A DNA stretch of 38,740 nt, from the IMG/VR virus record IMGVR_UViG_3300049927_000113, positions 1 to 38,740 of that record, one strand, 5' to 3'. The notes beneath the pieces were generated by a model. That model was not told the DNA's origin. It ran no database searches and worked only from the letters and a program-made list of their open reading frames with translations. Position numbers and translations under genes: made by a program. The stretch's first letter is position 1; each line of letters starts with the position of its first letter. The DNA is from a virus. Of the stretch, positions 9,148-38,450 are shown piece after piece.

Positions 9148-9682
9148 TGGTCGCGGTCACGGTGCCGGTGTATCCCGGAGAGCGGGCGCGCAGCGCGATG
9201 GCATTGGGACCGGTGGCACTGCTGCCACTGCTCAAGGCGGGCACGATGAAGTCCATGCCCGGATTGACGACGTCGCGGAAGCTCGCGCGTTGGTTGGCGC
9301 CGAGATACCACCGTTCGACTGCGTTGGTGATACCCACCTCGCCCGTGCTGTTGATCTGGACGGCACCCTGGAAGGTGACGTCCGCCGGGTCAAGATTGAA
9401 CCCGCTGCTGATGCTACTGATCATGGTTCCGGTGATGCCCGCAGGGGTCGTCCCGAGAGTGACAAACGCGAGGTCCCATTCGACCGCGTTATCCGCCGGG
9501 GTGCCATTCGTTCCGATGATGATATCGGTGATCTTGTATCGACGATTGCCGGCCCATCCGTTCGTCGCAGACGTCGCGGTACTATTGCCGATAACGATGA
9601 TCGTCTTGTACGTCGTCGCCAGATTTTGCTGCGCATTACCGGCACCAATCGCCGTGCTGTTGGTGATCGAGAAGTTAGCCAT
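9128..9682 (-). CDS. unknown virion-module protein, decoration-like
   Basis: The 184-residue product begins MANFSITNSTAIGAGNAQQN and is beta-rich, with a conserved-looking core NAVERWYLGANQRASFRDVV. In other phages, proteins of this size and composition between capsid and tail genes are often head decoration or neck proteins, but I cannot assign one. Its start overlaps the end of the Rossmann gene by 8 bases. GAGAGCCACG lies upstream of the ATG. Confidence 0.65.
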   Translation of the reverse strand: MANFSITNSTAIGAGNAQQNLATTYKTIIVIGNSTATSATNGWAGNRRYKITDIIIGTNGTPADNAVEWDLAFVTLGTTPAGITGTMISSISSGFNLDPADVTFQGAVQINSTGEVGITNAVERWYLGANQRASFRDVVNPGMDFIVPALSSGSSATGPNAIALRARSPGYTGTVTATIVGSEL

Positions 9683-24694: not shown

Positions 24695-26386
24695 CTACGT
24701 GCCGCCGTACAATGCGGTTGCCTTCGGCCGGTATTTGGTCTCGTCCTCCAGCTCAAAGGCCCGTTCTTCCTTTTTGACCGCCCAGCCGGCGCGGCGCAGG
24801 TAGATCAGCGCCATGGAACAGGTGTCGGCCAAGTCGTCATGGATGGCGCGCGGAACCAGCGCGCACTGCTTGATCATCTCGTCGGCCCATTCCTTGTCTG
24901 GTGCATGGATCAGGCCCTCGGCGAACAGGTGCACCACGGTCTGCAACCGCGCGACCTTGTCAGGCGACTTGATGAAGCCGGTTCTGGGATCGATCAGCTC
25001 GATGCCGAAGTCGAACGAGCCGAACAGCCGCGAGAGTTCCTGGCCGACCGAATGTCCGGCCGCCTTGTTTTCGATCAGCAGCCGGTCGACCTTGAATTTC
25101 TTGCAGTCGGCGCCGACCCTGGAGACCAGTTCGGGGAATTGGAGCCGGTCCTGCCAACAGAACATCAGGAAAATCAGCGGCTGACCGTTCGGATCGCGAA
25201 AGACGCCCCAGATCGACAGCGCCGACGGGTCGTTCTCTTCTTTTTCGGTATACGCGGTGTCGAGCGCGGCGAGGATGTATTCGAACCCGGGGTATTTTTC
25301 GGGAACGCCGCCGTTCTTCTCGGCGGTCTCCTTATCCCAGGTGCGCCACCACTCCTCGCGGATGATGCCGCCGCCGCGAGGCGCGGGCACCTGCTGATAT
25401 TGGCCGGCGTAGGCGTAAGGCCCTAGCTCCCTTTCGAGCTTAAAGACTTCGCTGGCCGGGAAACGGCCTGGCCAGAGCAAATCGCCCTCTTCGTCGCGGC
25501 GATCGGCCCAAAATACGTCGTCATCGTCAATATCATCAGTGTCATCGCCAATGAAGGTCACGATCTTGTCGTCGACCCAGGCGTTGACGTGCTGGCAAGG
25601 CACATAGGACATCGGAACGCAGAAATGCACGTAGTTCGGCGGTCTACCGGCCTTCCGCTCCGCCTCGTCTCTCATGAGGATATCGCCGGATAGATCGCCT
25701 TCATGGATGCGCTGCATCACCACGATCATCGCGCCGGTCTTCCGGTTATTTAGCCGGCTCGGCATGGTTTCCGACCACCACCGCACGACGCCCTCGCGGA
25801 CGTTTTCGGATTCGGCTTCCTTGACGAGATGCGGGTCGTCGGCGATCAGCATGTCGGCGCCGAAACCGGCGGCACGGGCGTCGACCGACGAACACATCCG
25901 GTAACCGCCCTGGTTGTTTTCGAAGTGCGACAGCCTGTTGCGGTCGGAAACCAGCTTGAACCGCTTGCCCCAGCGCGCCTGATACCAGGCCGACTCGATC
26001 AGCCGGCGGCATTTCAGGGAGTGTTCGAGCGACAGTGTCTCGGCATAGGATGCATAGAAGAACGAAACCTGCGGCCCGAGCAGCGGCCCCCGGGTGCGCT
26101 GGCACCAAACCCAGGCGACAAAGCAGATCGAAATGATCGCGGTCTTGCCGGTTCGGGGCGGCTCGTTGAGCAGCAGCCGCGAGATATGCCCGCGCGCCAC
26201 CGCCTCCATGTGATTGCAAATATCTTCGAGATGCCAGTTGTCGACGAAATCGGCCGGATCGAACTGCGGCCATGCCCCCTTCAGGAATTCGTAAAAGCTG
26301 TCCTCCAGCTTTTCGGCTTCCTGGATTTCCTTGATGCGCTTGGCGGCCTGCAAGGTCCGGACAAGCTGATGCTGGGTGGCCGACAT
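24695..26386 (-). CDS. terminase large subunit
   Basis: This is the ATP-driven DNA packaging motor and headful or end nuclease. Visible motifs are Walker A NEPPRTGKT (about residues 74-82 from the chosen start), Walker B MLIADDPH near 195, and an RNase H-like nuclease with LAALDTAY near 380, LLIENKAAG near 450 and HDDLADTCSMAL near 530, giving the acidic triad. The chosen start is the ATG at 26386-26384 (MSATQHQLV); an in-frame TTG at 26464 would add 26 residues but has no clear ribosome site. No small terminase gene is recognisable in the window. It lies directly upstream of the portal gene in the usual packaging order. Confidence 0.92.
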   Translation of the reverse strand: MSATQHQLVRTLQAAKRIKEIQEAEKLEDSFYEFLKGAWPQFDPADFVDNWHLEDICNHMEAVARGHISRLLLNEPPRTGKTAIISICFVAWVWCQRTRGPLLGPQVSFFYASYAETLSLEHSLKCRRLIESAWYQARWGKRFKLVSDRNRLSHFENNQGGYRMCSSVDARAAGFGADMLIADDPHLVKEAESENVREGVVRWWSETMPSRLNNRKTGAMIVVMQRIHEGDLSGDILMRDEAERKAGRPPNYVHFCVPMSYVPCQHVNAWVDDKIVTFIGDDTDDIDDDDVFWADRRDEEGDLLWPGRFPASEVFKLERELGPYAYAGQYQQVPAPRGGGIIREEWWRTWDKETAEKNGGVPEKYPGFEYILAALDTAYTEKEENDPSALSIWGVFRDPNGQPLIFLMFCWQDRLQFPELVSRVGADCKKFKVDRLLIENKAAGHSVGQELSRLFGSFDFGIELIDPRTGFIKSPDKVARLQTVVHLFAEGLIHAPDKEWADEMIKQCALVPRAIHDDLADTCSMALIYLRRAGWAVKKEERAFELEDETKYRPKATALYGGT

Positions 26387-26463
26387 CACCGCACGATGGC
26401 ATACTTTGAGCGCTTCCTCAATTCTTGGTTGACAGAGAGCCCAACCCGGCTCAATCTCGTTCA
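26387..26463. promoter_or_regulatory. divergent intergenic region with paired inverted repeats
   Basis: This gap separates the leftward structural genes from the rightward operon. It holds two inverted repeats of identical geometry, TTGAG-N6-CTCAA (26406-26421) and GAGCC-N6-GGCTC (26437-26452). A TTGACA hexamer lies between them (26429-26434) with only a weak -10 (CAATCT) 17 bases on. The ribbon-helix-helix gene starts at 26464, so these are candidate operators for it. Confidence 0.35.
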
Positions 26464-26658
26464 ATGATTACGTACTGGCATCTTCGCATCACCATTGAAA
26501 CGTCAGCAAAGCATCGCGCCGAAGAATTGGCGAAGTCCGAACGGCGATCAGCCGCAAATTATGTGGGCGGGCTGATCGAGAAGGACATGCGGGAGAAGGA
26601 AACGGCCGGCATCCGGCACCTCCTGAGAGATGTCGATTGGTCCAAGGAGACGACATGA
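26464..26658 (+). CDS. ribbon-helix-helix DNA-binding protein, likely operon regulator
   Basis: The 64-residue protein reads as a strand (YWHLRITIETS) followed by helix A (AKHRAEELAKSERRS) and helix B (AANYVGGLIEKDMREKE), the Arc/MetJ-type ribbon-helix-helix fold. Such small proteins dimerise and bind inverted repeats, usually autoregulating their own operon. It is the first gene of the rightward operon and faces the divergent gap with two inverted repeats. The start is the ATG at 26464; upstream in-frame codons belong to the gap. It overlaps the next gene by 4 bases. A toxin partner is not evident, so a transcriptional repressor is more likely than an antitoxin. Confidence 0.75.
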   Translation: MITYWHLRITIETSAKHRAEELAKSERRSAANYVGGLIEKDMREKETAGIRHLLRDVDWSKETT

Positions 26659-26879
26659 CCCGCGAAGAGATGATCGACCTCCGACTTCGCTTGATCCGTG
26701 GCGATCCGCCTTACGAGGAGGTCGACCTGATGGGCAAGCCGAAGCGTGCCAAGGGCGGCGTAGCCGGCCTTGATGAGCGCAAAGCCCTCGGTGATTACGA
26801 CACCAGCGCCGCCGGCATCAGGCTGGTCATGGATGCGTTGGTGAAACTGGCCGATCACCTGCTGGAGCGGATGCGATGA
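26655..26879 (+). CDS. small operon protein, unknown
   Basis: The ATG at 26655 is preceded by AAGGAG five bases upstream and overlaps the previous stop (ATGA). The 74-residue product starts MTREEMIDLRLRLIRGDPPY and ends in an amphipathic helix IRLVMDALVKLADHLLERM. The centre has KPKRAKGGVAGLDERK. It is probably a small helical protein; no family recognised. Confidence 0.7.
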   Translation: MTREEMIDLRLRLIRGDPPYEEVDLMGKPKRAKGGVAGLDERKALGDYDTSAAGIRLVMDALVKLADHLLERMR

Positions 26880-27373
26880 GCATGAACGTCGACATGCCAT
26901 CGATGACGAGCAGCGCCTACGGCTCGAACACAGCCGTCTTCGGGCTTGCCAATAACGGGCTTGTACCAACGTTCGCCGGCATAGCGCAGGGTGGCCTCGG
27001 CAATCTGCGAGGCCAGAATTTCATGAACCAGCCGCCAACGGGCGCAGCCCAACCGCCAATTGTACCGAACATGCCAAAACCCAAAAAGGAGCTACCCGTC
27101 ATGACAGCACGTCGCCTTGTCCAGGTTTTCATCGCCGATCCCGACGAGAACGTGCCGCTCGATCAGTCGATGCTTTACAGCGGCGAACAGAAGCTGACCG
27201 ATGCCACCGACCAGGAACTGTTCTTCGAGATCGACATCAAATCGGCCCTTGAAAAGCACAACGCCGATCGCATCAAGATCATCAACAAGAAGGTCAAGGA
27301 GCGCACCGAGTATCTGGAGCCGGCAAAAATCCGTGATCTGAAAATGGTCGTGGTGAACGTCGCGACGTTCTAA
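26876..27373 (+). CDS. unknown operon protein with a possible internal start
   Basis: The 165-residue reading frame starts with a 4-base overlap. Residues 1-70 are low in complexity (Ser, Asn, Gly, Pro). Residues 76-165 look like a folded domain: MTARRLVQVFIADPDENVPL, LYSGEQKLTDATDQELFFEI, then IKIINKKVKERTEYLEPAKI. The internal ATG of this part (27101) is preceded by AAAAAGGAG at normal spacing, so a shorter 90-residue product may be made separately. Function unknown. Confidence 0.68.
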   Translation: MSMNVDMPSMTSSAYGSNTAVFGLANNGLVPTFAGIAQGGLGNLRGQNFMNQPPTGAAQPPIVPNMPKPKKELPVMTARRLVQVFIADPDENVPLDQSMLYSGEQKLTDATDQELFFEIDIKSALEKHNADRIKIINKKVKERTEYLEPAKIRDLKMVVVNVATF

Positions 27374-27885
27374 TGACATCGATCACCACCGCGCGTCTCA
27401 GCCTGCGCCCGCTCACCAGAACGTCGTCGCGGAATCTCGTCTGGCTGCGCGACAAGGACGTGGTGCGCTATTCGGAGCAGCGTCACCGCGATCACACCCT
27501 GTCGTCCCAGCTTAGATACATGAACTCCTTCGTCGGCAAATCCCGGCTATGGGCGATCTACCTGGTCGAGACCGGCGAACACATCGGCAATCTCAGCGCC
27601 AGGCATGACGCGCCGAATGACGTTGCCGACGTCGGCATTATGATCGGCGAGACCAAACTCTGGGGCCGAGGTTATGCCGGCGAAGCATGGAAGGCCGCCT
27701 GCGCCTGGCTGATCGACAAGGAAGGCGGCGGCATTCGGAAGCTCGAAGCCGGATGCGCGCGGACCAATACGGCGATGCTCAAGATCATTCAGAGCAGCGG
27801 GTTCAAGCAGGAAGGAGAAATCCTCAATCATTTCCTGTACGACGGCAATCCGGTTTCGGCGATCCTATTCGGCAGGTTCCGATGA
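27373..27885 (+). CDS. GNAT acetyltransferase (RimL-like)
   Basis: The 170-residue protein starts with TARLSLRPLTRTSSRNLVWL, the usual beta-alpha opening of RimJ/RimL-type N-acetyltransferases, and has the acetyl-CoA loop WGRGYAGEA at about 97-105. It then has IRKLEAGCARTNTAMLKIIQ and SSGFKQEGEI, typical of the C-terminal motif B. It could N-acetylate a 4-amino sugar, as PseH and LegH do in nonulosonate pathways, since the downstream genes encode such a pathway; acetylation of a protein N-terminus is the alternative. A second GNAT lies at 32889. Confidence 0.8.
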   Translation: MTSITTARLSLRPLTRTSSRNLVWLRDKDVVRYSEQRHRDHTLSSQLRYMNSFVGKSRLWAIYLVETGEHIGNLSARHDAPNDVADVGIMIGETKLWGRGYAGEAWKAACAWLIDKEGGGIRKLEAGCARTNTAMLKIIQSSGFKQEGEILNHFLYDGNPVSAILFGRFR

Positions 27886-28061
27886 CCGACAAAGTAATCA
27901 TCGACCGGGTCCGCAGCATCCGCAGCAACAACAATGGCCTCTGGATGCGGCTGCTGGAGATCGCCTTGGAGAGCGAGCCGGTCAAAACCAAGGTGGTCCT
28001 GAAGCAGATCAATGCGAACGACAAAGCCATCTCCGATCTGGTTGGAAAGCTGGCAAAATGA
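27882..28061 (+). CDS. 59-residue helical operon protein
   Basis: The start ATG overlaps the previous stop by 4 bases; longer upstream readings in this frame are shadows of the acetyltransferase gene. The product MTDKVIIDRVRSIRSNNNGL then LWMRLLEIALESEPVKTKVV ends in LKQINANDKAISDLVGKLAK. It is helical and basic. The pattern is common for small phage proteins written as SIRxxNNxLWMxLLRIAL; function unknown. Confidence 0.72.
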   Translation: MTDKVIIDRVRSIRSNNNGLWMRLLEIALESEPVKTKVVLKQINANDKAISDLVGKLAK

Positions 28062-28663
28062 GACAGGCCGATATTTTTCTTCAATCTGAAGGGGACAACT
28101 GGCTCGAAAGGAACCGGGACAAGCTCGGCGCGCATGATCCGGTTGACAGGGCTATCACTTATCTCAGCCTGAAGCCAAAGCGCGTCCTGGAGATCGGCTG
28201 CGCCAACGGCTGGCGGCTGACAGCCTTACGAGAAAAATTTGGTTGCGAGATCACCGGCATTGAACCCAGCACCCAAGCCGGATGCGAAGCTGCCGACCGC
28301 CGCGTACCGATCTATCGCGGCACCGCCGAGTCGTTGCCGGTGCCGGACGGCGCGTTCGACCTCGTGATCTATGGATTCTGTCTCTACTTGACCGATCCGG
28401 CGGACTGGTTCCGGATCGTGGCTGAGGGTGACCGCGTCCTTGCCGATACCGGCCACATGATCATCCATGACTTCTACTATCCAAAGGCACCTTACGCACA
28501 GCCCTATCATCATTGCGATGACGTTCTCTCTTACCACATGAATTTCAGCGCTCTTTGGCTCGCGCATCCTGGATATCGCCGCGTCTATGGCAGCGGCGGA
28601 GACAACAACGTTGAATCTGTCACGGTGCTCGACAAATTTCCGGTCTTTGAGGTGCGGCCATGA
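28058..28663 (+). CDS. SAM-dependent methyltransferase (class I)
   Basis: The 201-residue protein has the SAM-binding motif RVLEIGCANGWRL at 42-54. The acidic loop is IEPS near 74, and the post-I to motif II region FDLVIYGFCLYLTDPADWF near 111 is followed by RVLADTGHMIIHDFY. This is the pattern of small-molecule or sugar O-/N-methyltransferases. In context it may methylate the sugar made by the operon; a protein or lipid target cannot be excluded. Both ends overlap neighbours by 4 bases. Confidence 0.82.
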   Translation: MRQADIFLQSEGDNWLERNRDKLGAHDPVDRAITYLSLKPKRVLEIGCANGWRLTALREKFGCEITGIEPSTQAGCEAADRRVPIYRGTAESLPVPDGAFDLVIYGFCLYLTDPADWFRIVAEGDRVLADTGHMIIHDFYYPKAPYAQPYHHCDDVLSYHMNFSALWLAHPGYRRVYGSGGDNNVESVTVLDKFPVFEVRP

Positions 28664-29601
28664 AGATCGGCGTGGTCGGATACGGCTCGATCGGCAGTCG
28701 CCATGCCCGCAACGCCGTCGCATTGGGACATGAGACTATCATCTATGATCCGGCGGGACCTTGCGATGTCAGGTTCGAGCGCGAGGTTTATGAGAAAGCC
28801 GACGCCGTCGTGATAGCGACGCCGAGTTGGGTCCATACCGGCTGCATCCGTGCCTGCGCCGAGCGCGGCAAGCACATGCTGGTCGAGAAGCCGATTTCGA
28901 CGGACGATCGCGGCCTACAGGAGCTGCTTGATCTCGCCGCGAAGAACGGTGCCGTCGTCATGATGGGCAATAACCTGCGCTTCCATCCCTGTGTCCTGAA
29001 GGCCAAGGAATGGCTCGATGCCGGTCTGATCGGCAAGCCGCTCTGGGCGAACTTCACCTGCGCGCAGGCGAGCAGCAAGCCGCTCTATCTCTCCGACGGC
29101 GTTATTTTGAATACCGGATCGCACGAGGTCGACATGGCGATGCACCTGCTCGGATGGGCGAAGGTCATCATGGCGAACGCTCATCTCGGTCTTCGCGTCG
29201 GCAATGGCGATAGCGATGTAAATCCAATGCGCAACTGTGACGATATCGCCGACTTCATGCTTCTCCATGGCGACGGTTGCCGCTCGACTTTTCATCTCGA
29301 TTTTGTGGCACCGATCCCGTTGCGGGAGTTCAGGATCATCGGAGATGATGGCATCCTGTATTGCGATCTCATCAAACGATGTCTTTACCGGTGGCAACCT
29401 GATCCGAAGTTGCCCGACGTTGTGCATTTCAACAACTATGCGAGCCCGACGCACTCTTGGGACGACGACTATCTCGACGAGATGCGCGCCTTCATCGACC
29501 GCATCGAAGGTCGCGATGTCCTCGGCGCATCCGGCCATCAGGGTCTCCATGCGCTCCAGGTCCTGCTCGACGTCCGCAAGAAGGCGGGGTTAACGCCGTG
29601 A
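28660..29601 (+). CDS. Gfo/Idh/MocA-family oxidoreductase
   Basis: The 313-residue protein has an N-terminal Rossmann fold with GYGSIG at 7-12, the catalytic-region EKPIS at 76-80 and the downstream NNLRFHPCVLKAKEWLDAG block, followed by a C-terminal beta-sheet dimer domain (residues about 120-313). The family oxidises or reduces sugars and their nucleotide derivatives with NAD(P). Members of this family (for example PtmF-type enzymes) are found in flagellin legionaminic or pseudaminic acid loci, so a modifying role on a nonulosonic acid or its precursor is a reasonable inference. No pathway-specific residue is visible. Confidence 0.85.
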   Translation: MKIGVVGYGSIGSRHARNAVALGHETIIYDPAGPCDVRFEREVYEKADAVVIATPSWVHTGCIRACAERGKHMLVEKPISTDDRGLQELLDLAAKNGAVVMMGNNLRFHPCVLKAKEWLDAGLIGKPLWANFTCAQASSKPLYLSDGVILNTGSHEVDMAMHLLGWAKVIMANAHLGLRVGNGDSDVNPMRNCDDIADFMLLHGDGCRSTFHLDFVAPIPLREFRIIGDDGILYCDLIKRCLYRWQPDPKLPDVVHFNNYASPTHSWDDDYLDEMRAFIDRIEGRDVLGASGHQGLHALQVLLDVRKKAGLTP

Positions 29602-30043
29602 GCCAGCGACATGGTCATTCACCGCGTTCTGGCATGTCTCGAACCTATCGAGCTTGGGCTCGCATGATTCAGCGATGCGAGAACCCCAACAACAAGGATT
29701 ACAATAATTATGGAGGTCGCGGGATCACCGTCTGCGACGGGTGGCATACCTTTGACAATTTTCTCGCTGACATGAGTGACTGTCCGGATGGGCTTGAGCT
29801 TGATCGCATAGAAAGCAACGGCCATTACACGGCCGACAATTGTCGATGGACCGATGAAGGGACTCAAGCCGAAAATAGAAATTGGACACGGTGGGTCTAT
29901 ATCGACGACCAGAAGATGCCGATGAAACGGGCGGCCGAACTACTGGGTCTAAAGTACGGCTCACTTAAACATCTCACGTCGAAGAAAGGAGCCGACATGT
30001 CGGCTCAAGACGCCATCAGCCGCCTATTGGTGACGAGGCGATC

Positions 30044-30047
<4 letters not shown>
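29598..30047 (+). CDS. HNH-like phage protein inserted in the sugar operon
   Basis: The GTG start at 29598 overlaps the previous stop (GTGA), giving 149 residues. The core MSRTYRAWARMIQRCENPNN, then NYGGRGITVCDGW and DRIESNGHYTADNCRW, is widespread in phages and often annotated as an HNH-type endonuclease. It has D-R-I-E-N...N-C-R-W in place of the canonical HNH residues, so catalysis is uncertain. The C-terminus (MKRAAELLGLKYGSLKHLTS) is a helix-turn-helix. It interrupts otherwise metabolic genes and keeps the 4-base overlaps on both sides, suggesting a mobile nuclease gene tuned to the operon. Confidence 0.75.
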
Positions 30048-32040
<1,993 letters not shown>

Positions 32041-32044
<4 letters not shown>

Positions 32045-32892
32045 AATCGGTCCTCATAACAGGCGGCAGTGGCGCGTTCGGCACGGCGTTCGCCAGACGC
32101 ATGCTCACGATGCAGGGTGGGCCTTTGCGCATCGTCATCCTTTCTCGCGGCGAGCACCGCCAGGCCGAGATGATGCGCGAACTGGAAGGATTTGAGGGCG
32201 CGTCCTGGCGCATGAGGTACTTCATCGGCGACGTCCGCGATCGGGACCGGCTCCGCAGGGCCATGGAGGGGATCGATGTCGTGATCCATGCGGCAGCGCT
32301 GAAGCGCATCGAGGTCGGAGCCTATAACCCGATGGAGGTCATGAAGACCAACATTCTCGGCGCCGCCAATGTCATTGAAGCCGCGACCGATGCCGATGTC
32401 GATCGCGTCGTTGCGCTCTCATCCGACAAGGCCTTCCAGCCGATTAGTCCCTACGGGACCAGCAAGGCCTTCGCGGAATCGCTTTTCCTCGCCGCAAACA
32501 ATGCGCGTGGCAATTTCGGCCCGCGCTTCGCCGTTGTGCGCTACGGGAATGTATGGTGCAGCACAGGCTCGGTGGTTCCGACATGGTGGAAGATTTTGCA
32601 AACATCCGAGACGGTGCCCGTCACCGATCCGGAGTGCACCCGGTTCTTCATGACCATGGAGGAAGCCATCGCTTTGGTACTCAAGACCATCTTAATCATG
32701 AAGGGCGGCGAGATCGCGATCCCGACGCTTTCGGCCTATCGGCTTGGCGATCTCGCCGAAGCCATGGGCGCAAAGATGGACGTGCGCGGTCTGCCAGCGT
32801 TCGAGAAGCGCCACGAGTCCATGGCCGAGGGCAACAGCAGCGACAAGGCCCGCCGGATGTCCGTCGCCGAACTGCGGGCCGCGCTCGCATGA
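32041..32892 (+). CDS. PseB-like nucleotide-sugar 4,6-dehydratase (extended SDR)
   Basis: The GTG start overlaps the previous stop. The 283-residue protein has the NAD loop TGGSGAFG at 7-14, HAAALKRIEVGAYNPME near 83, SSDKA at 127-131 and YGTSK with Tyr138 and Lys142. AAALK and SDKA are signatures of the PseB/FlaA1/CapD dehydratase branch, which converts UDP-GlcNAc to the 4-keto-6-deoxy sugar used as first step to pseudaminic acid. It is shorter than PseB (about 330 residues) at the C-terminus. Substrate inferred from family and neighbours. Confidence 0.85.
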
Positions 32893-33344
32893 TCCACCTT
32901 CGCCCGGCCAACATGCAGGACGCCGACAGGCTCTTTGCCTGGCGCAACGATCCGGTAACCTGCGCCAATAGCCGCTCGACTGCCGCCATCTCGCGCGAAG
33001 ACCACGACCGCTGGATGCAGTTCAACGTCCTGCAGGGCTATCCCGAGCATTTTGTGATGATCGCCGAGGGCGACGCCGGCAGCGTCGGCGTCGTGCGCTT
33101 CGATGCGGCGAAGAATGACCTCATGACCTATGTGGCATCGATCACGATCGCGCCGCAGCATCGCGGCGCCGGACTGGCCTGTCCAATATTGGACATGGCA
33201 TGCGGCTATTTTCCCGACTTCGCGATCGATGCAGAAATCCGGTGCGATAACAAGACCTCCCAGAAGGTTTTTGAACGTTGCGGCTTCCAGCAAACAAGTC
33301 TAAATTTGGACTTTATTAAATACCGCAGGGAACCGTTGGCATGA
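32889..33344 (+). CDS. PseH/LegH-like GNAT N-acetyltransferase
   Basis: The start ATG overlaps the dehydratase stop (ATGA); 151 residues. It opens IHLRPANMQDADRLFAWRND and has the acetyl-CoA loop IAPQHRGAGLACP near 87-99, then IRCDNKTSQKVFERCGF near 120. The DADRLFAWRND opening is typical of the amino-sugar acetyltransferases of nonulosonate loci, which acetylate the 4-amino group produced by PseC. Placement between the dehydratase and the aminotransferase supports this. Confidence 0.82.
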   Translation: MIHLRPANMQDADRLFAWRNDPVTCANSRSTAAISREDHDRWMQFNVLQGYPEHFVMIAEGDAGSVGVVRFDAAKNDLMTYVASITIAPQHRGAGLACPILDMACGYFPDFAIDAEIRCDNKTSQKVFERCGFQQTSLNLDFIKYRREPLA

Positions 33345-34468
33345 TGAAGATAAAGCCGTTTAATTCATTTGGAGCAATGGAATATTCTGCGATGATCCAA
33401 TTCGCTGGCGACGCCGAAGAAACCGGCACCCCGCTTTCTGGATACATGGCTGGCCAAGAGCGCGGCGGACATCATGTCGTCGCGCTGGAAACCACATGGG
33501 CGCAGACATTCGGCATCAAGCACGCCATCGCCTGCAATAGCGCGACCAGCGGCCTGATGGCCGCAGCCTTCGCGGTCGACCTGGGTCGCGGCGATAAGTT
33601 TCTCTGCCCTGTTATGACCATGAGCGCCACGGCGGCGGCGCCTATGTTCACGGGAGCGGTGCCGGCATTTTGCGACGTCGACAGCAGAACGTTCGCGATG
33701 AGCCCGCCAAGGCGCAATTTGTGCCAGGATGAAAAGCCGAAAGCTGTCTTCCTGACGCATCTTTTCGGCCTTGCGATCGCCGAACCGTGCTGGACCGGTT
33801 GGGCTCGCGAGCATGGGGTGAAGATTGTCATCGATGCGGCACAGGCACCGTTCGCGAGATGCGACGGTGTTCTCGCGGGGACGACCGCCGACATCGGCGT
33901 CTATTCCCTGAATGTGCATAAGCCGCTTCAGTGCGGCGAAGGCGGCATCTGCGTCACGAATGATGATGACCTCGCCGCGCGGCTTCGCAAATTCATCAAC
34001 CACGGCGAAACTATCAATGCGCGGATCGGCCTGAACCTGCGCATGCCAGAGGTTTGCGCGGCGATTGCGCGGGTGCAGCTCAAGCGCGGTGAGGAGATCA
34101 TCGCCGGTAGGATCAAGCAGGCGGAGGCGATCATCGCGGCGATCGGCGACGTTCCCGGGCTGCGCCCGCCCTACATCCATCCCGATTGCAAGCACGTCTA
34201 TTACACCATCCCGTTTCTGATCGAGAAGAACCGCGCCGAGTTCTGCGCCGCGCTGCGCGCGGAGGGCGTGCCGATCGTCGAGGGGTATAATGGCGGCCCG
34301 CTCAATCGCATGAAGCCATTCGCGCCGCTCGCGCGACATTGCCCGTTCGCTGATGACCTACACGATCGCAGCCTGTTCTATTTCGAGAACTGCGCATACG
34401 ATCCGACGCCGGAGCAGATCGAGCAGATCGGCGCGGCGTTCCGGAAGGCGGCGGAGGCGGTGCTATGA
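33341..34468 (+). CDS. PseC-like DegT/DnrJ/EryC1 sugar aminotransferase
   Basis: The 375-residue protein is a PLP-dependent aminotransferase of nucleotide-sugar type. It has the substrate loop ACNSATSGLMAAAFAVD near 64-80, IVIDAAQAPFA at about 163-172 and VYSLNVHKPLQCGEGG at 187-202 with PLP lysine 194. HNFK-like signatures are replaced by NVHKP, as in some PseC/LegC homologues. It would aminate the 4-keto sugar from the dehydratase. It overlaps both neighbours by 4 bases. Confidence 0.86.
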   Translation: MMKIKPFNSFGAMEYSAMIQFAGDAEETGTPLSGYMAGQERGGHHVVALETTWAQTFGIKHAIACNSATSGLMAAAFAVDLGRGDKFLCPVMTMSATAAAPMFTGAVPAFCDVDSRTFAMSPPRRNLCQDEKPKAVFLTHLFGLAIAEPCWTGWAREHGVKIVIDAAQAPFARCDGVLAGTTADIGVYSLNVHKPLQCGEGGICVTNDDDLAARLRKFINHGETINARIGLNLRMPEVCAAIARVQLKRGEEIIAGRIKQAEAIIAAIGDVPGLRPPYIHPDCKHVYYTIPFLIEKNRAEFCAALRAEGVPIVEGYNGGPLNRMKPFAPLARHCPFADDLHDRSLFYFENCAYDPTPEQIEQIGAAFRKAAEAVL

Positions 34469-35112
34469 CCGAAATCGTCGCCGAGATTTCCGGCAACCAT
34501 GGTGGATCAATCGTCAATGCCCACCGGCTCATCAAACATGCCAAAGATGCCGGCGCTGACGCCGTCAAGTTCCAGTGCTTCGATCCAGAACGTCTTGCGG
34601 CGCGTCGCGCAATGCGGGTCGATGTCCTAGCCCTTGCCGACGGCGTCCCGCTCATCGATCTCTATCGGAAGATTCATACACCCCAAGTCTGGTTTCCGCA
34701 GTTGATCCATCAGGCCGAGGCCTTGGGCCTCGCATGGTTCTCGTCGGTCTTCGATCCAATCGACGTCGCCTTCCTCGAAACGCTCAACTGCCCCAGGTAC
34801 AAAATCTCTGCCTTCGAGATGCTTGACTGGGACATCATCAAGGCCGTCCGCGAGACCGGCAAGCCCATCGTGATGAGCGTACGTCAGGGGCCGGATGTGA
34901 CGGTCCTCGTGGCGAGCGACTACAATGGCAAATTCCTTCCGCTCGGCGCCTCGGTGCACGAACGTTTCAACGAGGACACTCATTTTCTGCCGAACAATCC
35001 GGACTGCCCCATGGTCGAGTTTCACCTTAGGCTCGAAGACGTCGACACGCCGGACAAGGATTTCTCGGTCACCGCAGACGAGCTGCGCACGATCGTCGGA
35101 TGGCTGAAATAA
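34465..35112 (+). CDS. shortened NeuB/PseI/LegI-like nonulosonate synthase
   Basis: The first half matches NeuB-family synthases, which condense an N-acetyl hexosamine with phosphoenolpyruvate: IVAEISGNHGGS at 4-15, AGADAVKFQCFD at 29-40, FSSVFDPIDVAFLE near 92 and YKISAFEMLDW at 112-122. The end MVEFHLRLEDVD to FSVTADELRTIV matches the segment where the family has EKHFTLDR and SLTPDEL. The stretch that normally lies between, containing the GYSDH metal-ligand block, is missing, and so is the C-terminal antifreeze-like (SAF) domain; length is 215 instead of about 340 residues. Activity is therefore uncertain. It is the last gene of the operon. Confidence 0.82.
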   Translation: MTEIVAEISGNHGGSIVNAHRLIKHAKDAGADAVKFQCFDPERLAARRAMRVDVLALADGVPLIDLYRKIHTPQVWFPQLIHQAEALGLAWFSSVFDPIDVAFLETLNCPRYKISAFEMLDWDIIKAVRETGKPIVMSVRQGPDVTVLVASDYNGKFLPLGASVHERFNEDTHFLPNNPDCPMVEFHLRLEDVDTPDKDFSVTADELRTIVGWLK

Positions 35113-35150: not shown

Positions 35151-35224
35151 TGGCACAGATGGAGAGAATCGAACTCCCGTGTTCGGTTTTGGAGACCGAC
35201 GTCCTACCGCTGAACGACATCTGC
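35151..35224 (-). tRNA. tRNA-Trp (CCA)
   Basis: Anticodon loop CTCCAAA on a TCGGT/ACCGA stem gives CCA, reading UGG. The acceptor GCAGATG pairs with CATCTGT (one G-T at 1:72), then G73 and encoded CCA. T loop TTCGATT. It is the last gene of the array before the terminator. Confidence 0.92.
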
Positions 35225-35231
35225 ATGAAAT

Positions 35232-35308
35232 TGGTACTGACGCAGTGATTCGAACACTTTCCCACCGATTCACAGTCGGCGTGCTCTTTGCCATCGAGCA
35301 TCGTCAGC
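35232..35308 (-). tRNA. tRNA-His (GTG)
   Basis: Loop CTGTGAA on a GCCGA/TCGGT stem gives anticodon GTG. The discriminator is A73 and the base before G1 is T, so there is no encoded G-1 or C73. This is the alphaproteobacterial type of tRNA-His, not the usual bacterial type. Encoded CCA; T loop TTCGAAT. Confidence 0.92.
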
Positions 35309-35309
35309 A

Positions 35310-35380
35310 TGGTCGCGCACCCGGGTTTCGATCCCGGCTGACAGCCTTATGAGAGCCGTTTCCTCGCCAGAGGGAGCGCG
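35310..35380 (-). tRNA. tRNA with CAT anticodon (Met or Ile2), short D arm
   Basis: Loop CTCATAA gives CAT. The acceptor CGCGCTC/GTGCGCG has one mismatch, then A73 and CCA. The D arm is compressed to CCTC-TGGC-GAGG, a 4-base loop, and the T loop is ATCGAAA. At 71 nt it is shorter than usual. Elongator Met versus lysidine-modified Ile cannot be decided by eye. Confidence 0.8.
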
Positions 35381-35381
35381 A

Positions 35382-35452
35382 TGGCAGCGGCCCCGGGTGT
35401 CGAACCCGACTATCAGGCTTCAAAGGCCCGAGCCCTCGCCGGAGGTGCCGCA
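35382..35452 (-). tRNA. tRNA-Gln (TTG), short D arm
   Basis: Loop CTTTGAA on CGGGC/GCCTG gives TTG, reading CAA. U1 faces U72 and G73 is present, both fitting GlnRS recognition. The D arm CCTC-CGGC-GAGG is short, like that of the adjacent CAT tRNA. Encoded CCA. Confidence 0.85.
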
Positions 35453-35457
35453 TCAAT

Positions 35458-35532
35458 TGGTAGTCCCTGCGGGTGTCGATCCCGCCTCTCCGGTGTGAAA
35501 AACCAGTATCCTTGCCGATAGACGAAGGGACC
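35458..35532 (-). tRNA. tRNA-Glu (TTC)
   Basis: Loop TTTTCAC on CTGGT/ACCGG gives TTC, reading GAA. Acceptor GGTCCCT/AGGGACT, A73, CCA; T loop ATCGACA. Confidence 0.9.
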
Positions 35533-35533
35533 T

Positions 35534-35608
35534 TGGAGCGGACGCGGGGATTCGAACCCCGGACGAACAGCTTGGAAGGCTGACACTCTACCACTGAGTT
35601 ACGTCCGC
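35534..35608 (-). tRNA. tRNA-Gly (TCC)
   Basis: Loop CTTCCAA gives TCC, reading GGA. Acceptor GCGGACG/CGTCCGC is perfect, then T73 and CCA. T arm GGGG-TTCGAAT-CCCC is canonical. Confidence 0.93.
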
Positions 35609-35612
35609 GAAT

Positions 35613-35702
35613 TGGCGGAAGGACGGGGATTCGAACCCCGGGACGGCTCACGCCGTCGGCGATTTAGCAAACCGCTGCTTTAAGCCTCTCAGCCATCCTT
35701 CC
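35613..35702 (-). tRNA. tRNA-Ser (GCT)
   Basis: Loop TTGCTAA gives GCT, reading AGC and AGU. A long variable arm (GACGGC-GTGA-GCCGTC) marks a class II tRNA. Acceptor GGAAGGA/TCCTTCC, G73, CCA. Confidence 0.94.
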
Positions 35703-35703
35703 T

Positions 35704-35779
35704 TGGTGGCCACGGCAGGAGTCGAACCCGCGCGTTTCCCGTTAGGACCGGGAAGCTCTATCCACTGAGCTACGTGGCC
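35704..35779 (-). tRNA. tRNA-Arg (CCT)
   Basis: Loop GTCCTAA on TCCCG/CGGGA gives CCT, reading AGG. Acceptor GGCCACG/CGTGGCC, A73, CCA; T loop TTCGACT. Confidence 0.92.
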
Positions 35780-35783
35780 GTGT

Positions 35784-35860
35784 TGGCGCTTCCGCGAGGA
35801 TTCGAACCCCGGGCGACCCGGTGTAGAAAACCGGCGCTCTGTCCGCTGAGCTACGGAAGC
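35784..35860 (-). tRNA. tRNA-Arg (TCT)
   Basis: Loop TTTCTAC on CCGGT/ACCGG gives TCT, reading AGA, a rare codon in GC-rich hosts. Acceptor GCTTCCG/CGGAAGC, G73, CCA. Confidence 0.92.
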
Positions 35861-35861
35861 A

Positions 35862-35938
35862 TGGAGACGGAAGCGCGAGTCGAACGCGCCTTAGGCCGGC
35901 TTTGCAGGCCGGTGCCTTGCCGATCGAGCCATTCCGTC
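35862..35938 (-). tRNA. tRNA-Cys (GCA)
   Basis: Loop CTGCAAA on CCGGC/GCCGG gives GCA. Acceptor GACGGAA/TTCCGTC with T73 (U73, the Cys identity base) and CCA; T arm GCGCG-TTCGACT-CGCGC. Confidence 0.92.
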
Positions 35939-35945
35939 AACAAAT

Positions 35946-35977
35946 ATGTTTCCATTTTGGTCCGGTGGTGGAAACAT
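35946..35977. repeat. 9-bp inverted repeat in a tRNA spacer
   Basis: ATGTTTCCA (35946-35954) and its exact reverse complement TGGAAACAT (35969-35977) flank a 14-base loop. It fills most of the 51-base spacer between tRNA-Cys and tRNA-Gln, which is longer than most spacers here. It could be a processing signal, a remnant of a lost tRNA or a binding site. Confidence 0.5.
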
Positions 35978-35989
35978 CCAAGTATACAT

Positions 35990-36064
35990 TGGCGGGGGAT
36001 GACGGGTTCGAACCGCCGCGCACGGAGTCAGAGTCCGTCGCTCTACCGACTGAGCTAATCCCCT
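35990..36064 (-). tRNA. tRNA-Gln (CTG)
   Basis: Loop CTCTGAC on ACGGA/TCCGT gives CTG, reading CAG. A1 faces C72 (unpaired) and G73 is present, in line with GlnRS preference for an open first pair. Encoded CCA. Confidence 0.9.
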
Positions 36065-36067
36065 ATT

Positions 36068-36144
36068 TGGTCAGGGTGCGGAGATTTGAACTCCGGGCCT
36101 CCTGCGCCCGAGGCAAGCGCTCTGCCGGTCTGAGCTATACCCTG
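36068..36144 (-). tRNA. tRNA-Pro (CGG)
   Basis: Loop CTCGGGC on CTTGC/GCAGG gives CGG, reading CCG. Acceptor pairs except A7-C66; A73, CCA; T loop TTCAAAT. Confidence 0.9.
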
Positions 36145-36158
36145 ATAAAGTACATCCC

Positions 36159-36554
36159 ATGAAAGTCATTGTATGCGGCGGTCGAGCCTTCAGAAGTCCC
36201 GCGCAGGTCTGGCGCGCTCTCGACAGAATCCACGCCACGGCTCCCATAACCGAATTGATGCAGGGCGGCGCGGCCGGCGTCGACACCTTCGCCCGCGAAT
36301 GGGCCGCCAGGAAGCCCGAGATTAAGCGCTTTGTCTGCCGCGCCGATTGGGACAAGTACGGCAAGAGCGCCGGCCCAAGGCGCAACGCCCGGATGCTCGA
36401 ATGGAAGCCCGACCGCGTTATCGCCTTCCCAGGCGGTGTCGGTACCGCCGACATGATCGCTCAAGCGGCAAGGGCCGGCGTCGATGTCTACCATGTCGAT
36501 CCGACAGAATGGCGATCTCACGAGGAGTCGAACCCCGAACCTCCCGGTTCGTAG
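36159..36554 (+). CDS. DUF2493 (YspA-type SLOG) nucleotide-binding protein, antisense within the tRNA array
   Basis: The 131-residue protein shows the SLOG/DUF2493 pattern: VIVCGGRAF at 3-11, LMQGGAAGVDTFAREWA at about 33-49, WDKYGKSAGPRRNARML near 64-80 and AFPGGVGTADMI at 89-100. SLOG proteins bind nucleotides or NAD/ADP-ribose derivatives and often occur in phage and defence contexts. It is the only plus-strand gene in the array. Its last 45 bases run antisense through the 3' part of tRNA-Arg (ACG), so its C-terminal 14 residues are read from tRNA complement. No clear promoter or ribosome site was seen. Confidence 0.8.
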   Translation: MKVIVCGGRAFRSPAQVWRALDRIHATAPITELMQGGAAGVDTFAREWAARKPEIKRFVCRADWDKYGKSAGPRRNARMLEWKPDRVIAFPGGVGTADMIAQAARAGVDVYHVDPTEWRSHEESNPEPPGS

Positions 36555-36586
36555 CCGGGCGCTCTCTCCAGTTGAGCTATGAGACC
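36510..36586 (-). tRNA. tRNA-Arg (ACG)
   Basis: Loop CTACGAA on CCCGG/CCGGG gives ACG, presumably inosine-modified to read CGU, CGC and CGA. Acceptor GGTCTCA/TGAGATC, G73, CCA. The plus-strand DUF2493 gene ends inside it. Confidence 0.93.
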
Positions 36587-36587
36587 A

Positions 36588-36662
36588 TGGCGCTGCATGG
36601 GAGAATCGAACTCCCCTTTCCGACGTGAGAGGCCGGCTTCCTGACCGATAGAAGAATGCAGC
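36588..36662 (-). tRNA. tRNA-Glu (CTC)
   Basis: Loop CTCTCAC on CCGGC/GTCGG gives CTC, reading GAG. Acceptor GCTGCAT/ATGCAGC, G73, CCA. Confidence 0.91.
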
Positions 36663-36666
36663 AAAT

Positions 36667-36741
36667 TGGCTCCGGGGGCAGGGATCGAACCTGCGATCGT
36701 CTGATTAACAGTCAGCCGCTGTACCACTCAGCTACCCCGAA
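36667..36741 (-). tRNA. tRNA-Asn (GTT)
   Basis: Loop CTGTTAA gives GTT. Acceptor TTCGGGG/CCCCGGA (one T-G), G73, CCA. The first anticodon-stem pair (G27-A43) is mismatched. Confidence 0.9.
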
Positions 36742-36743
36742 CT

Positions 36744-36818
36744 TGGTGGACCGAGGGAGAATCGAACTCCCGACCCGCTGCTTGCAAAACAGCCGCTCTC
36801 CCGCTGAGCTACCGGCCC
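36744..36818 (-). tRNA. tRNA-Ala (TGC)
   Basis: Loop TTTGCAA on GCTGT/GCAGC gives TGC. Acceptor GGGCCGG/TCGGTCC contains the G3-U70 pair, the alanine identity element; A73, CCA. Confidence 0.94.
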
Positions 36819-36822
36819 GATA

Positions 36823-36897
36823 TGGTGCCAAGAAGAGGGATCGAACCTCTGCGCGCGGTGCTTCAAACCGCAGCTCTACCGACTGAGCTATCTTGGC
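36823..36897 (-). tRNA. tRNA-Phe (GAA)
   Basis: Loop TTGAAGC on GCGGT/ACCGC gives GAA. Acceptor GCCAAGA/TCTTGGC, A73, CCA; T loop TTCGATC. Confidence 0.93.
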
Positions 36898-36902
36898 GAA
36901 AC

Positions 36903-36976
36903 TGGAGCGGGTAGCGGAAATCGAATCCGCGTCATCACCTTGGCAAGGTGACACTCTGCCACTGAGCTATACCCGC
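36903..36976 (-). tRNA. tRNA-Gly (GCC)
   Basis: Loop TTGCCAA on TCACC/GGTGA gives GCC. Acceptor GCGGGTA/TACCCGC, T73, CCA. Confidence 0.93.
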
Positions 36977-36977
36977 A

Positions 36978-37064
36978 TGGTGGGCAGACCACGGATTCGA
37001 ACCTGGGAACCCCGAAGGGACGACGTTTACAGCGTCGCTGCTTTGGCCGCTTGCATACCTACCC
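36978..37064 (-). tRNA. tRNA-Tyr (GTA)
   Basis: Loop CTGTAAA on GACG/CGTC gives GTA. The long variable arm (GTCCC-TTC-GGGGTT) is the bacterial class II tRNA-Tyr form. Acceptor GGGTAGG/TCTGCCC, A73, CCA. Confidence 0.94.
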
Positions 37065-37069
37065 AAAAC

Positions 37070-37146
37070 TGGTTGCGCAGGTGGAACTCGAATCCACAAT
37101 ACCTCAGCTTATGAGACTGATTAGCCTACCCAGGCTTGTCCGCGCT
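37070..37146 (-). tRNA. tRNA with CAT anticodon, unpaired first position
   Basis: Loop CTCATAA on TCAGT/GCTGA gives CAT. The acceptor pairs at 2-7 but A1 faces A72, with A73 and CCA. A mismatch at 1:72 is the main initiator feature, yet the three G-C pairs of an initiator anticodon stem are absent. Initiator-like Met, elongator Met or Ile2 are all open. The 62 bases before tRNA-Ser hold no feature I can see. Confidence 0.82.
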
Positions 37147-37208
37147 ATATTGGTGCGAAGCTTTTAACTCACTCGCTTTGCTGATGTACATCCGATCAGT
37201 CAAGAAAT

Positions 37209-37297
37209 TGGCGGAGCGCCAAGGAGTTGAACCCTCACCGCTTGCGCGGGGCACGGTTTTCGAGACCGTCTGGCCCACCATCGGACCGCAACGCTCC
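37209..37297 (-). tRNA. tRNA-Ser (CGA)
   Basis: Loop CTCGAAA on ACGGT/ACCGT gives CGA, reading UCG. Long variable arm CCCCGC-GCAA-GCGGTG. Acceptor GGAGCGT/GCGCTCC, G73, CCA; T loop TTCAACT. Confidence 0.92.
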
Positions 37298-37301
37298 ATA
37301 T

Positions 37302-37379
37302 TGGTCGTTCCGGGATGATTCGAACATCCGACCCGAGGCTTCGGAGGCCCCTGCTCTATTTCCACTGAGCTACGGAACG
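37302..37379 (-). tRNA. tRNA-Arg (CCG)
   Basis: Loop CTCCGAA on GGGGC/GCCTC gives CCG, reading CGG. Acceptor CGTTCCG/CGGAACG, A73, CCA. Its 5' end abuts the stop of the RusA-like gene. Confidence 0.92.
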
Positions 37380-37721
37380 TTATTTCTTCTGGTTGGTCCA
37401 GAGCTTCTTGATCCTGGTTTCGCCGATTAGCCCGTCGTCGGTAACAATGCCCGGCTTATCGAGCGTCTTGCCGTCGAGCGCCTGCTCCAGCGCCAGGTAA
37501 AGGTTGCCGTTGTCCGGTGACGACGGATTGACGAAGAGAACATGGACGTCGATCTCGTGCGGAATTGCCGTAACGATGCCGATCTTCTTCATCGCAGCGC
37601 GGATCGCCGCGCGATACTGCTTGATGATCTGGATGTGCATTCTCCGATGCGGGGCATCGTGAATGTAGAGCATCAGCAGTGGCGGCTCGGCCGTCGGCAC
37701 GTAGTTCGCGATGACCTTCAT
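37380..37721 (-). CDS. RusA-like Holliday junction resolvase candidate
   Basis: The 113-residue protein has a strand-rich N-terminus and a helix QIIKQYRAAIRAAMKKIG. It then shows IDVHVLFVNPSSPDNGNLYL to ALEQALDG at about 57-84 and GIVTDDGLI at 91-99. The order D-N-x-x-L-x-x-A-L-x-G then D-D-x-x-I is the RusA metal-site pattern (normally PDxDN...ALNG...DD). It is transcribed with the tRNAs; its ATG shares a base with the CCA of tRNA-Met and its stop abuts tRNA-Arg. RusA enzymes resolve branched DNA before packaging. Divergent sequence, so the call is tentative. Confidence 0.65.
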   Translation of the reverse strand: MKVIANYVPTAEPPLLMLYIHDAPHRRMHIQIIKQYRAAIRAAMKKIGIVTAIPHEIDVHVLFVNPSSPDNGNLYLALEQALDGKTLDKPGIVTDDGLIGETRIKKLWTNQKK

Positions 37722-37796
37722 GGTGCATGCCCGGGGGATCGAACCCCGTCCTGTGACTGTTATGAGCAGTCGGCCGTCCCATCTGGCTCGACATGC
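37721..37796 (-). tRNA. tRNA with CAT anticodon (Met or Ile2)
   Basis: Loop CTCATAA on GACTG/CAGTC gives CAT. Acceptor GCATGTC/GGCATGC is fully paired with one T-G; A73, CCA; T arm CGGGG-TTCGATC-CCCCG. G1-C72 pairing makes it an elongator-type tRNA. Confidence 0.9.
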
Positions 37797-37885
37797 GAAT
37801 GGCTTTCCGATCAGGAGGCCGCTGATTCCTCATTTACCTCCGTTTACCCCGCAGCCTCACTATGCGGGCACCGCCTGATCGAAAC

Positions 37886-38053
37886 TTAACGCGAGAGCTG
37901 CTTGCACATATCACGAACCGCAGCCTTGCGCTCGCGCTTCCAGAACCGTCGCTTGATTTCCTTGATCGCGCCGGGGCGCCAGCGCAGCAGACGCCGGGCT
38001 CGCCGTGAAAATGCATCCCACTCATCGCCGCCGTGCAGTCTGGCTTTCATCAT
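37886..38053 (-). CDS. small basic phage protein (MKARLHGG type)
   Basis: The 55-residue frame (an ATG one codon later is equally possible) reads MKARLHGGDEWDAFSRRARR, then LLRWRPGAIKEIKRRFWKRE and a short basic end. I recognise the K-x-R-L-H-G-G-x-E-x-D-A opening followed by W-x-P-G-x-x-K-x-I-K-R from many phages, where it is of unknown function and often lies near tRNA or DNA-metabolism genes. It sits between two tRNAs in the same orientation. The region 37797-37885 downstream of it shows only a small hairpin (CCCGCA/TGCGGG). Confidence 0.72.
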   Translation of the reverse strand: MMKARLHGGDEWDAFSRRARRLLRWRPGAIKEIKRRFWKRERKAAVRDMCKQLSR

Positions 38054-38066
38054 CGATCATCCGAAT

Positions 38067-38125
38067 TGGCCGCATCGTTAGGGGACACTGCCCAGCTAGG
38101 TCCGGGCTCTCACCGGCACGACGCG
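38067..38125 (-). ncRNA. 59-nt tRNA-like element with encoded CCA and a CTA-containing loop
   Basis: The minus strand starts CGCGTCG and ends CGATGCG-G-CCA: a full 7-bp acceptor (one G-T), discriminator G and encoded CCA, spaced 4 bases from tRNA-Pro as other array members are. Inside is one clear hairpin, GCCCGG/CTGGGC with loop ACCTAG. There is no recognisable D arm and no TTCRA T loop. It may be a decayed or minimal tRNA; if the loop works as an anticodon loop, CTA would read UAG. Function uncertain. Confidence 0.45.
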
Positions 38126-38129
38126 AAAT

Positions 38130-38203
38130 TGGTCTCCGCACGGAGTTCCGCCTTCCGGCCTCCTGCTCCCAAGGCAGGCGCTCTTCTCACGAGCTTTGCA
38201 GAG
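38130..38203 (-). tRNA. tRNA-Pro (TGG) with degenerate T loop
   Basis: Loop CTTGGGA on CCTGC/GCAGG gives TGG, reading CCA. Acceptor CTCTGCA/TGCGGAG, A73, CCA. The T arm reads CGGAA-GGCGGAA-CTCCG, so TTCRA is absent and one stem pair is lost; it may be a pseudo-tRNA or structurally unusual. Confidence 0.75.
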
Positions 38204-38206
38204 ATA

Positions 38207-38280
38207 TGGCGACGCTACGGAGTTTCGATCTCCGGTCATCCGGTTGACAACCGGGTGCTCTCCCATTGAGCTATAGCGCC
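38207..38280 (-). tRNA. tRNA-Asp (GTC)
   Basis: Loop TTGTCAA on CCCGG/CCGGA gives GTC. Acceptor GGCGCTA/TAGCGTC, G73 (Asp identity), CCA; T loop ATCGAAA. Confidence 0.92.
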
Positions 38281-38281
38281 A

Positions 38282-38370
38282 TGGTGCGACCAGGGAGACT
38301 CGAACACCCACGGGGACAGCGCCCCACAGCCTTCTCAGGGCTGACCGTCTACCAATTCCGGCATGGTCGC
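38282..38370 (-). tRNA. tRNA-Leu (GAG)
   Basis: Loop CTGAGAA on CAGCC/GGCTG gives GAG, reading CUC and CUU. Long variable arm; acceptor GCGACCA/TGGTCGC, A73 (Leu identity), CCA. Confidence 0.93.
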
Positions 38371-38375
38371 ATTGT

Positions 38376-38450
38376 TGGTGAACCCTCGGCGAATCGAACG
38401 CCGGACACGGAGGTTAAGAGGCTCCTGTTCTTCCACTGAACTAAGGGTCC
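38376..38450 (-). tRNA. tRNA-Lys (CTT)
   Basis: Loop CTCTTAA gives CTT, reading AAG. Acceptor GGACCCT/AGGGTTC, A73, CCA. The innermost anticodon-stem pair is C-C. Its 5' end overlaps the stop of the HNH gene by 10 bases. Confidence 0.9.

Follow-up and report, generated by a model that had tools for sequence, protein, structure and literature searches.

The canonical pathway to pseudaminic acid in Campylobacter and Helicobacter uses PseB, PseC, PseH, PseG, PseI and PseF in that order, and the Caulobacter version comprises FlmA, FlmB, FlmH, FlmD, NeuB and FlmC (PMC7591256). The nearest published phage case is the EpaA-EpaB pair, in which a CTP_transf_3 domain fused to an aldo-keto reductase, together with a short-chain dehydrogenase, alters the C8 configuration of host pseudaminic acid; the available part of that report describes two genes that modify the host sugar and, as far as it goes, no PseB, PseC, NeuB or transferase (PMC12053666). 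A search of open papers on phage nonulosonic acid synthesis returned host modification by EpaAB and receptor papers, and no cassette such as the one described here, which lies in the IMG/VR virus record IMGVR_UViG_3300049927_000113. The whole record of 38,740 bases was analysed and is referred to as the window. Its cassette (26876-35112, + strand) adjoins a divergent terminase gene and very probably encodes a nonulosonic acid pathway. We give a probability of roughly 0.6 to the overall reading that a modified nonulosonic acid is synthesised, activated and passed on by the phage, with virion proteins as its most likely target.

Like the canonical pathway, the phage operon has counterparts of PseB and PseI, putative counterparts of PseC and PseH, and a cytidylyltransferase. 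In contrast, PseG is missing, the place of PseF is taken by a fusion of an SpsF-type cytidylyltransferase with a class III aminotransferase, the synthase is of miniature size, and a MocA dehydrogenase, a methyltransferase and a GNAT are added. With EpaA-EpaB the cassette shares the use of phage genes on a nonulosonic acid and a CTP_transf_3 fusion, but the fusion partner is a class III aminotransferase in the window and a reductase in EpaA (PMC12053666). Bacterial clusters in Magnetospirillum, Hyphomicrobiaceae, Acidobacteria and Pseudoalteromonas carry the same fusion as the phage (or its halves as neighbours) together with PseB, PseC and NeuB and, like the phages, often a PIG-L, methyltransferase or MocA gene; the nearest bacterial fusion enzymes, from Alphaproteobacteria, are about 50% identical. 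They differ from the phage loci in having PseG, often fused to PseH (the PseG part scores above cut-off), a full-length NeuB and often an aldo-keto reductase, and the phages form a separate clade. The Pseudoalteromonas cluster stands beside an open reading frame (ORF) that we read as flagellin-like.

Gene content and descent of the cassette

On re-reading of the + strand operon, every enzyme named in the initial annotation was found, in the order given there and with significant profile matches; that list had overlooked an HNH endonuclease gene interrupting the set. The genes are as follows (lengths in amino acids, aa).

24695-26464 (-), terminase large subunit TerL (phrog_38), divergent from the cassette and tying it to the phage core genome
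26464-26658 (+), small ORF of 64 aa adjoining TerL and kept in several relatives
26876-27373 (+), conserved protein of 165 aa (phrog_17203, weak)
27373-27885 (+), GNAT acetyltransferase, the first of the enzyme genes, in nearly all relatives (Acetyltransf_3, 72 bits)
27882-28061 (+), small ORF of 59 aa between GNAT and methyltransferase, seen in the sequence
28058-28663 (+), S-adenosylmethionine-dependent methyltransferase (Methyltransf_11)
28660-29601 (+), Gfo/Idh/MocA sugar dehydrogenase (GFO_IDH_MocA; EKP motif present)
29598-30047 (+), mobile HNH endonuclease interrupting the operon between MocA and the fusion (phrog_374)
30044-32044 (+), cytidylyltransferase-class III aminotransferase fusion (CTP_transf_3, 99 bits, and Aminotran_3)
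32041-32892 (+), PseB-like inverting UDP-N-acetylglucosamine (UDP-GlcNAc) 4,6-dehydratase (TIGR03589, 295.6 bits; Polysacc_synt_2, 254 bits)
32889-33344 (+), PseH-like GNAT in a variable slot between PseB and PseC (TIGR03585, 39 bits)
33341-34468 (+), DegT/PseC-like aminotransferase (TIGR03588, 131 bits, against 117.5 for LegC)
34465-35112 (+), miniature NeuB/PseI-type synthase of 215 aa (PseI profile, 128 bits; barrel motifs, no SAF domain)

Neighbouring cassette genes mostly share 4-base ATGA start-stop overlaps, an operon-like organisation. The ORF at 26464-26658 had been labelled a ribbon-helix-helix (RHH) regulator, a label left unsupported because the ORF has no Pfam match. In the fusion enzyme, residues 1 to ~210 correspond to SpsF/CTP_transf_3 and residues ~257-660 to a class III aminotransferase (PRK06209-like), which on sequence grounds is predicted to combine activation with cytidine monophosphate (CMP) and an amination.

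The PseB profile TIGR03589 scored 296 bits with the dehydratase, compared to 172 for FnlA, the next best, and 61 for LegB, and the catalytic S-D-K and Y-x3-K motifs were seen by eye. The DegT enzyme scored 131 bits with PseC, 117.5 with LegC and 115 with DesI. The PseB and PseI profiles outscore LegB and NnaB, and PseC leads LegC narrowly. Pseudaminic-type stereochemistry of the predicted product is likely rather than established, because the winning profiles all fall below their curated cut-offs.

The cassette is a core module of a large phage family that is uncultured and comes mostly from soil. Searches for relatives with the fusion enzyme and the terminase found the identical gene order beside a divergent TerL, and sister phages of 73-77 kb, reached by a wider search from the transferase-like protein described below, keep the order as well, which brings the related contigs that share it to more than 20. 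It runs GNAT, optional formyltransferase or second methyltransferase, methyltransferase, MocA, fusion, PseB, variable slot, PseC-like enzyme and NeuB; in a few sister phages NeuB lies directly behind the fusion. The variable slot holds the PseH-like GNAT in the window, and elsewhere an ATP-grasp protein with a PIG-L deacetylase, a methyltransferase, an RmlD-like reductase, or nothing. Many relatives lack the PseH-like GNAT, and there the first GNAT may stand in for it; fragmentary records limit this and every other statement of absence made here. A modified sugar, as the initial annotation had proposed, is supported by this swapping of GNAT, PIG-L deacetylase, ATP-grasp, formyltransferase, methyltransferase and reductase genes among relatives, which also suggests sugar variation among the phages comparable to the variation of surface antigens in bacteria.

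In the tree of fusion enzymes, 26 phage sequences formed one clade (Shimodaira-Hasegawa-like approximate likelihood ratio test, SH-aLRT, 100) apart from 70 bacterial sequences. Since the phage enzymes form a single clade, the history of the cassette fits one old acquisition followed by descent with the phage. The ratio of nonsynonymous to synonymous substitution rates (dN/dS) was 0.06-0.27 for the cassette genes, indicating purifying selection, compared to 0.07-0.09 for the terminase and head protein, values being rough where dS exceeds 1. The shared order and the separate clade agree with the phage-encoded pathway that had been proposed, and the nonulosonic (pseudaminic-type) reading also held up in the profiles and the bacterial clusters; the miniature size of the synthase and a GT42-like putative transferase had been missed.

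HNH endonucleases of differing types occupy the same MocA/fusion site in the window, in contig L008 (9489-10004) and in contig L268 (14171-14866).

The miniature synthase and the candidate transferase

The synthase of the window has 215 aa, compared to about 340 aa for full-length NeuB. Residues E7, K35, K113, S138, S163, H165, E185, H187 and D197 were common to the miniature and full-length phage forms in the alignment and, by our mapping to Neisseria meningitidis NeuB, would be residues of the phosphoenolpyruvate (PEP) and metal site. The barrel fold and motif residues are shared with PseI, NeuB and SpsE (8h2c, 1xuu, 1vli), but the second half of the barrel has shortened helices and the antifreeze-like (SAF) domain with its substrate-binding Arg is absent. 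The AlphaFold2 model (predicted local distance difference test, pLDDT, 88.6) had pseudaminic acid synthase PseI as its best structural match (TMq 0.79), and the PseI profile match (128 bits) covers only the N-terminal half.

In the NeuB tree, the sequences from this phage clade form one group (99); nested within it, on a long branch, are the miniatures together with a short form of 252 aa (100). Most cassette members retain full-length NeuB; the miniature was also found in three phages that belong to other lineages (G007, G022 and G024). In G001 and G004, two records with a miniature, no second NeuB was found, and a search of these records gave no convincing stand-alone SAF ORF, with controls recovered at E<1e-26. 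A sequencing artefact or decayed gene was rejected as the origin of the short NeuB, which recurs across many assemblies, forms one branch and is under purifying selection. The SAF-domain substitution R322A inactivates Caulobacter crescentus NeuB (PMC7591256), and because this Arg is essential there, the miniature must work some other way. R140, which is invariant in the miniatures and which the full-length forms lack, is a candidate replacement for it. The miniature is a natural test case for the dependence of NeuB enzymes on the antifreeze-like domain.

The candidate transferase is encoded in the virion gene block, from which two genes are needed here.

9675-10730 (-), GT42 (CstII)-like putative CMP-nonulosonate transferase (predicted fold, co-occurrence)
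16644-17558 (-), major head protein (phrog_371), used as lineage marker

Capsid and tail genes flank the gene at 9675-10730 on the same strand, and its position is kept across the clade. Plain sequence comparison of its product with Pfam, NCBIfam, PHROGs and the PDB gave nothing significant, and only fold comparison was informative. An alignment of 38 sequences gave a confident model (pLDDT 91.5), and all 13 PDB matches of this model at E<=0.001 were chains of the GT42 sialyltransferase CstII; Pasteurella sialyltransferase and Magnetospirillum Maf came lower in the list. The best fold matches were CstII (1ro7/1ro8) and the Maf flagellin transferase (5mu5). Judged from the modelled fold and its linkage to the cassette, the protein is probably the transferase for the nonulosonic acid.

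The transferase and the cassette were both present in 20 records and both absent in 14. The fusion enzyme was found in all 19 searched large records with the GT42-like protein, G022 having the cytidylyltransferase half only. Among records selected by the head protein, the 13 without the transferase were all also without NeuB (13/13), and two positives carry both. A related prophage, in a genome from the order to which Alsobacter belongs, shares the structural genes and has neither cassette nor transferase; it was the one clearly related prophage in a head-protein host search covering 397 genomes of one bacterial order, and is useful as a control and not as a host assignment for the window. In G007, G022 and G024, which belong to other lineages, the miniature NeuB, PseB, the cytidylyltransferase and the transferase occur together, and this support is more independent of shared ancestry. 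Weak transferase homologues were found in the more distant phages G439 and G440. We found no paper on a core module of a phage clade that combines synthesis of a nonulosonic acid, its activation with CMP and a candidate transferase.

In the G007 locus (L012, 7767-16425), an aminotransferase, an aldo-keto-reductase-like ORF, the cytidylyltransferase, the miniature NeuB, PseB and the GT42-like gene are clustered. In the Alsobacter-order prophage (L283-L285, G158 contig 6), an integrase-like ORF lies beside tRNA-Arg and the head protein is 58% identical.

Proposed pathway and destination of the sugar

In the proposed pathway, PseB would convert UDP-GlcNAc to a UDP-4-keto-6-deoxy sugar, the DegT enzyme would aminate C4 and a GNAT would acylate the aminated sugar. 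A host hydrolase, PseG or an equivalent, would then strip UDP, the NeuB-like synthase (here the miniature) would condense the sugar and PEP, and formation of the CMP-sugar would fall to the cytidylyltransferase part of the fusion. The presence of MocA and of the fused class III aminotransferase suggests that these probably oxidise and aminate a further carbon; a look through the literature for nonulosonic acids of the 8-amino or triamino kind gave no result. The methyltransferase and GNATs would cap the sugar, and the GT42-like protein would move it from CMP, most likely onto a virion protein. The miniature synthase and the linked GT42-like protein point to a probable make-activate-attach system rather than a metabolic cassette. 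The place of the transferase gene, among capsid and tail genes, makes virion proteins the likeliest acceptor, although as the target of the sugar the virion is named tentatively, at somewhat less than even odds. It is doubtful that a new nonulosonic acid with an extra amino group (placed by MocA and the fused aminotransferase, and diversified through exchange of capping genes), a minimal NeuB in the window's branch and virion attachment by a phage branch of the GT42/Maf fold all hold together. The cassette and the transferase-like protein suggest that the phages sugar-coat their own particles or the host.

Several results weigh against this reading. The NCBIfam scores lie under the curated cut-offs (bits scored/cut-off: PseB 296/408, PseC 131/424, PseH 39/93, PseI 128/340). 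A profile built from bacterial PseG and run at maximum sensitivity matched none of 10,498 phage ORFs, and as a control it recovered about 50 of 80 bacterial loci; the absence of a recognisable PseG hydrolase noted in the initial annotation thus extends to all phage loci searched, and the cassette is therefore not self-sufficient as a canonical pathway. From this absence we infer that the host apparently supplies PseG or an equivalent; such a dependence on the host pathway is testable, and may bear on host range. NeuB was not found in the fusion-carrying records G005 and G010, both possibly fragments. The PDB profile search with the transferase-like protein was not significant (best E=0.28, a sialyltransferase), and the match to CstII is at fold level only (template-modelling score 0.39-0.46, about 0.45; about 15% identity). 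By eye in the alignment, the CstII catalytic His is not conserved, and the catalytic base could not be assigned. The presence/absence pattern partly reflects shared ancestry and is largely one split on the tree, so that the hypergeometric value computed for it does not measure how probable a shared function is. G442-G447, with more distant NeuB-like and nonulosonic-type genes, have no transferase. A distant homologue of the transferase also occurs in a Microcystis phage, where the half of the genome that was viewed has no nonulosonic genes annotated, NeuB and PseB included. That homologue (PP496355; L077, 14902-15705) is annotated as a type 11 methyltransferase, probably a misannotation.

A serious rival, though on balance unlikely, is that the sugar is placed on the host surface (lipopolysaccharide, capsule or flagellin), where it would block competing phages or hide the receptor, the GT42-like protein acting on host glycans. 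CstII, the nearest solved fold, acts on lipooligosaccharide, and the homologous bacterial clusters resemble surface or flagellin loci. The EpaA-EpaB proteins of Acinetobacter baumannii prophages change host capsular pseudaminic acid (PMC12053666). The place of the transferase gene inside the virion structural block, on the capsid/tail strand and kept throughout the clade, fits a virion acceptor better but is not decisive.

It is improbable that the cassette only tailors a host nonulosonic acid (amine, methyl, acyl, CMP re-activation), with the miniature NeuB as a relic or regulator. The missing PseG would fit, as would the loss of the SAF domain, given the essential Arg of that domain in C. 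crescentus NeuB (PMC7591256), and EpaA likewise has a CTP_transf_3 domain and acts on host pseudaminic acid (PMC12053666). However, most members keep a full-length NeuB, the miniature keeps the barrel motif residues under purifying selection, and PseB and PseC would be pointless.

Phages do glycosylate DNA, but hypermodification of phage DNA is a very remote explanation here: no result supports it, no base-modifying or DNA glycosyltransferase gene was recognised in the window, and the candidate transferase resembles CMP-sugar transferases acting on glycans or proteins. The virion is favoured over DNA as the destination because the cassette is linked to this virion-block transferase. Host contamination, or an ordinary O-antigen locus misbinned as phage, can be dismissed: the enzymes have bacterial relatives, but the phage terminase adjoins the cassette with the portal and major head protein genes after it, the arrangement is repeated in many separate assemblies of 57-77 kb, and the phage enzymes form their own clade.

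Neighbouring genes

The virion block also contains an esterase that is possibly related to the cassette.

6498-7298 (-), SASA-family carbohydrate esterase (sialic-acid-specific acetylesterase family; PF03629, 53.9 bits, cut-off 24.8)

BLAST of this esterase against the relatives gave no counterpart. Directly after the cassette, 23 tRNA genes are arrayed at 35151-38450; none occur in the large relatives G001 (71.6 kb) and G002 (74 kb). Downstream of the cassette, ORFs resembling serine recombinases by eye (L007, 18843-19556; L008, 16202-16879) suggest that some members are temperate. ORFs resembling alphaproteobacterial outer-membrane beta-barrels of the Omp25/31 type were seen by eye near the cassette in four contigs (L003, 11868-12722; L004, 16873-17706; L007, 16983-17909; L023, 4257-5111), and are possibly a clue to the host or a surface-exclusion factor.

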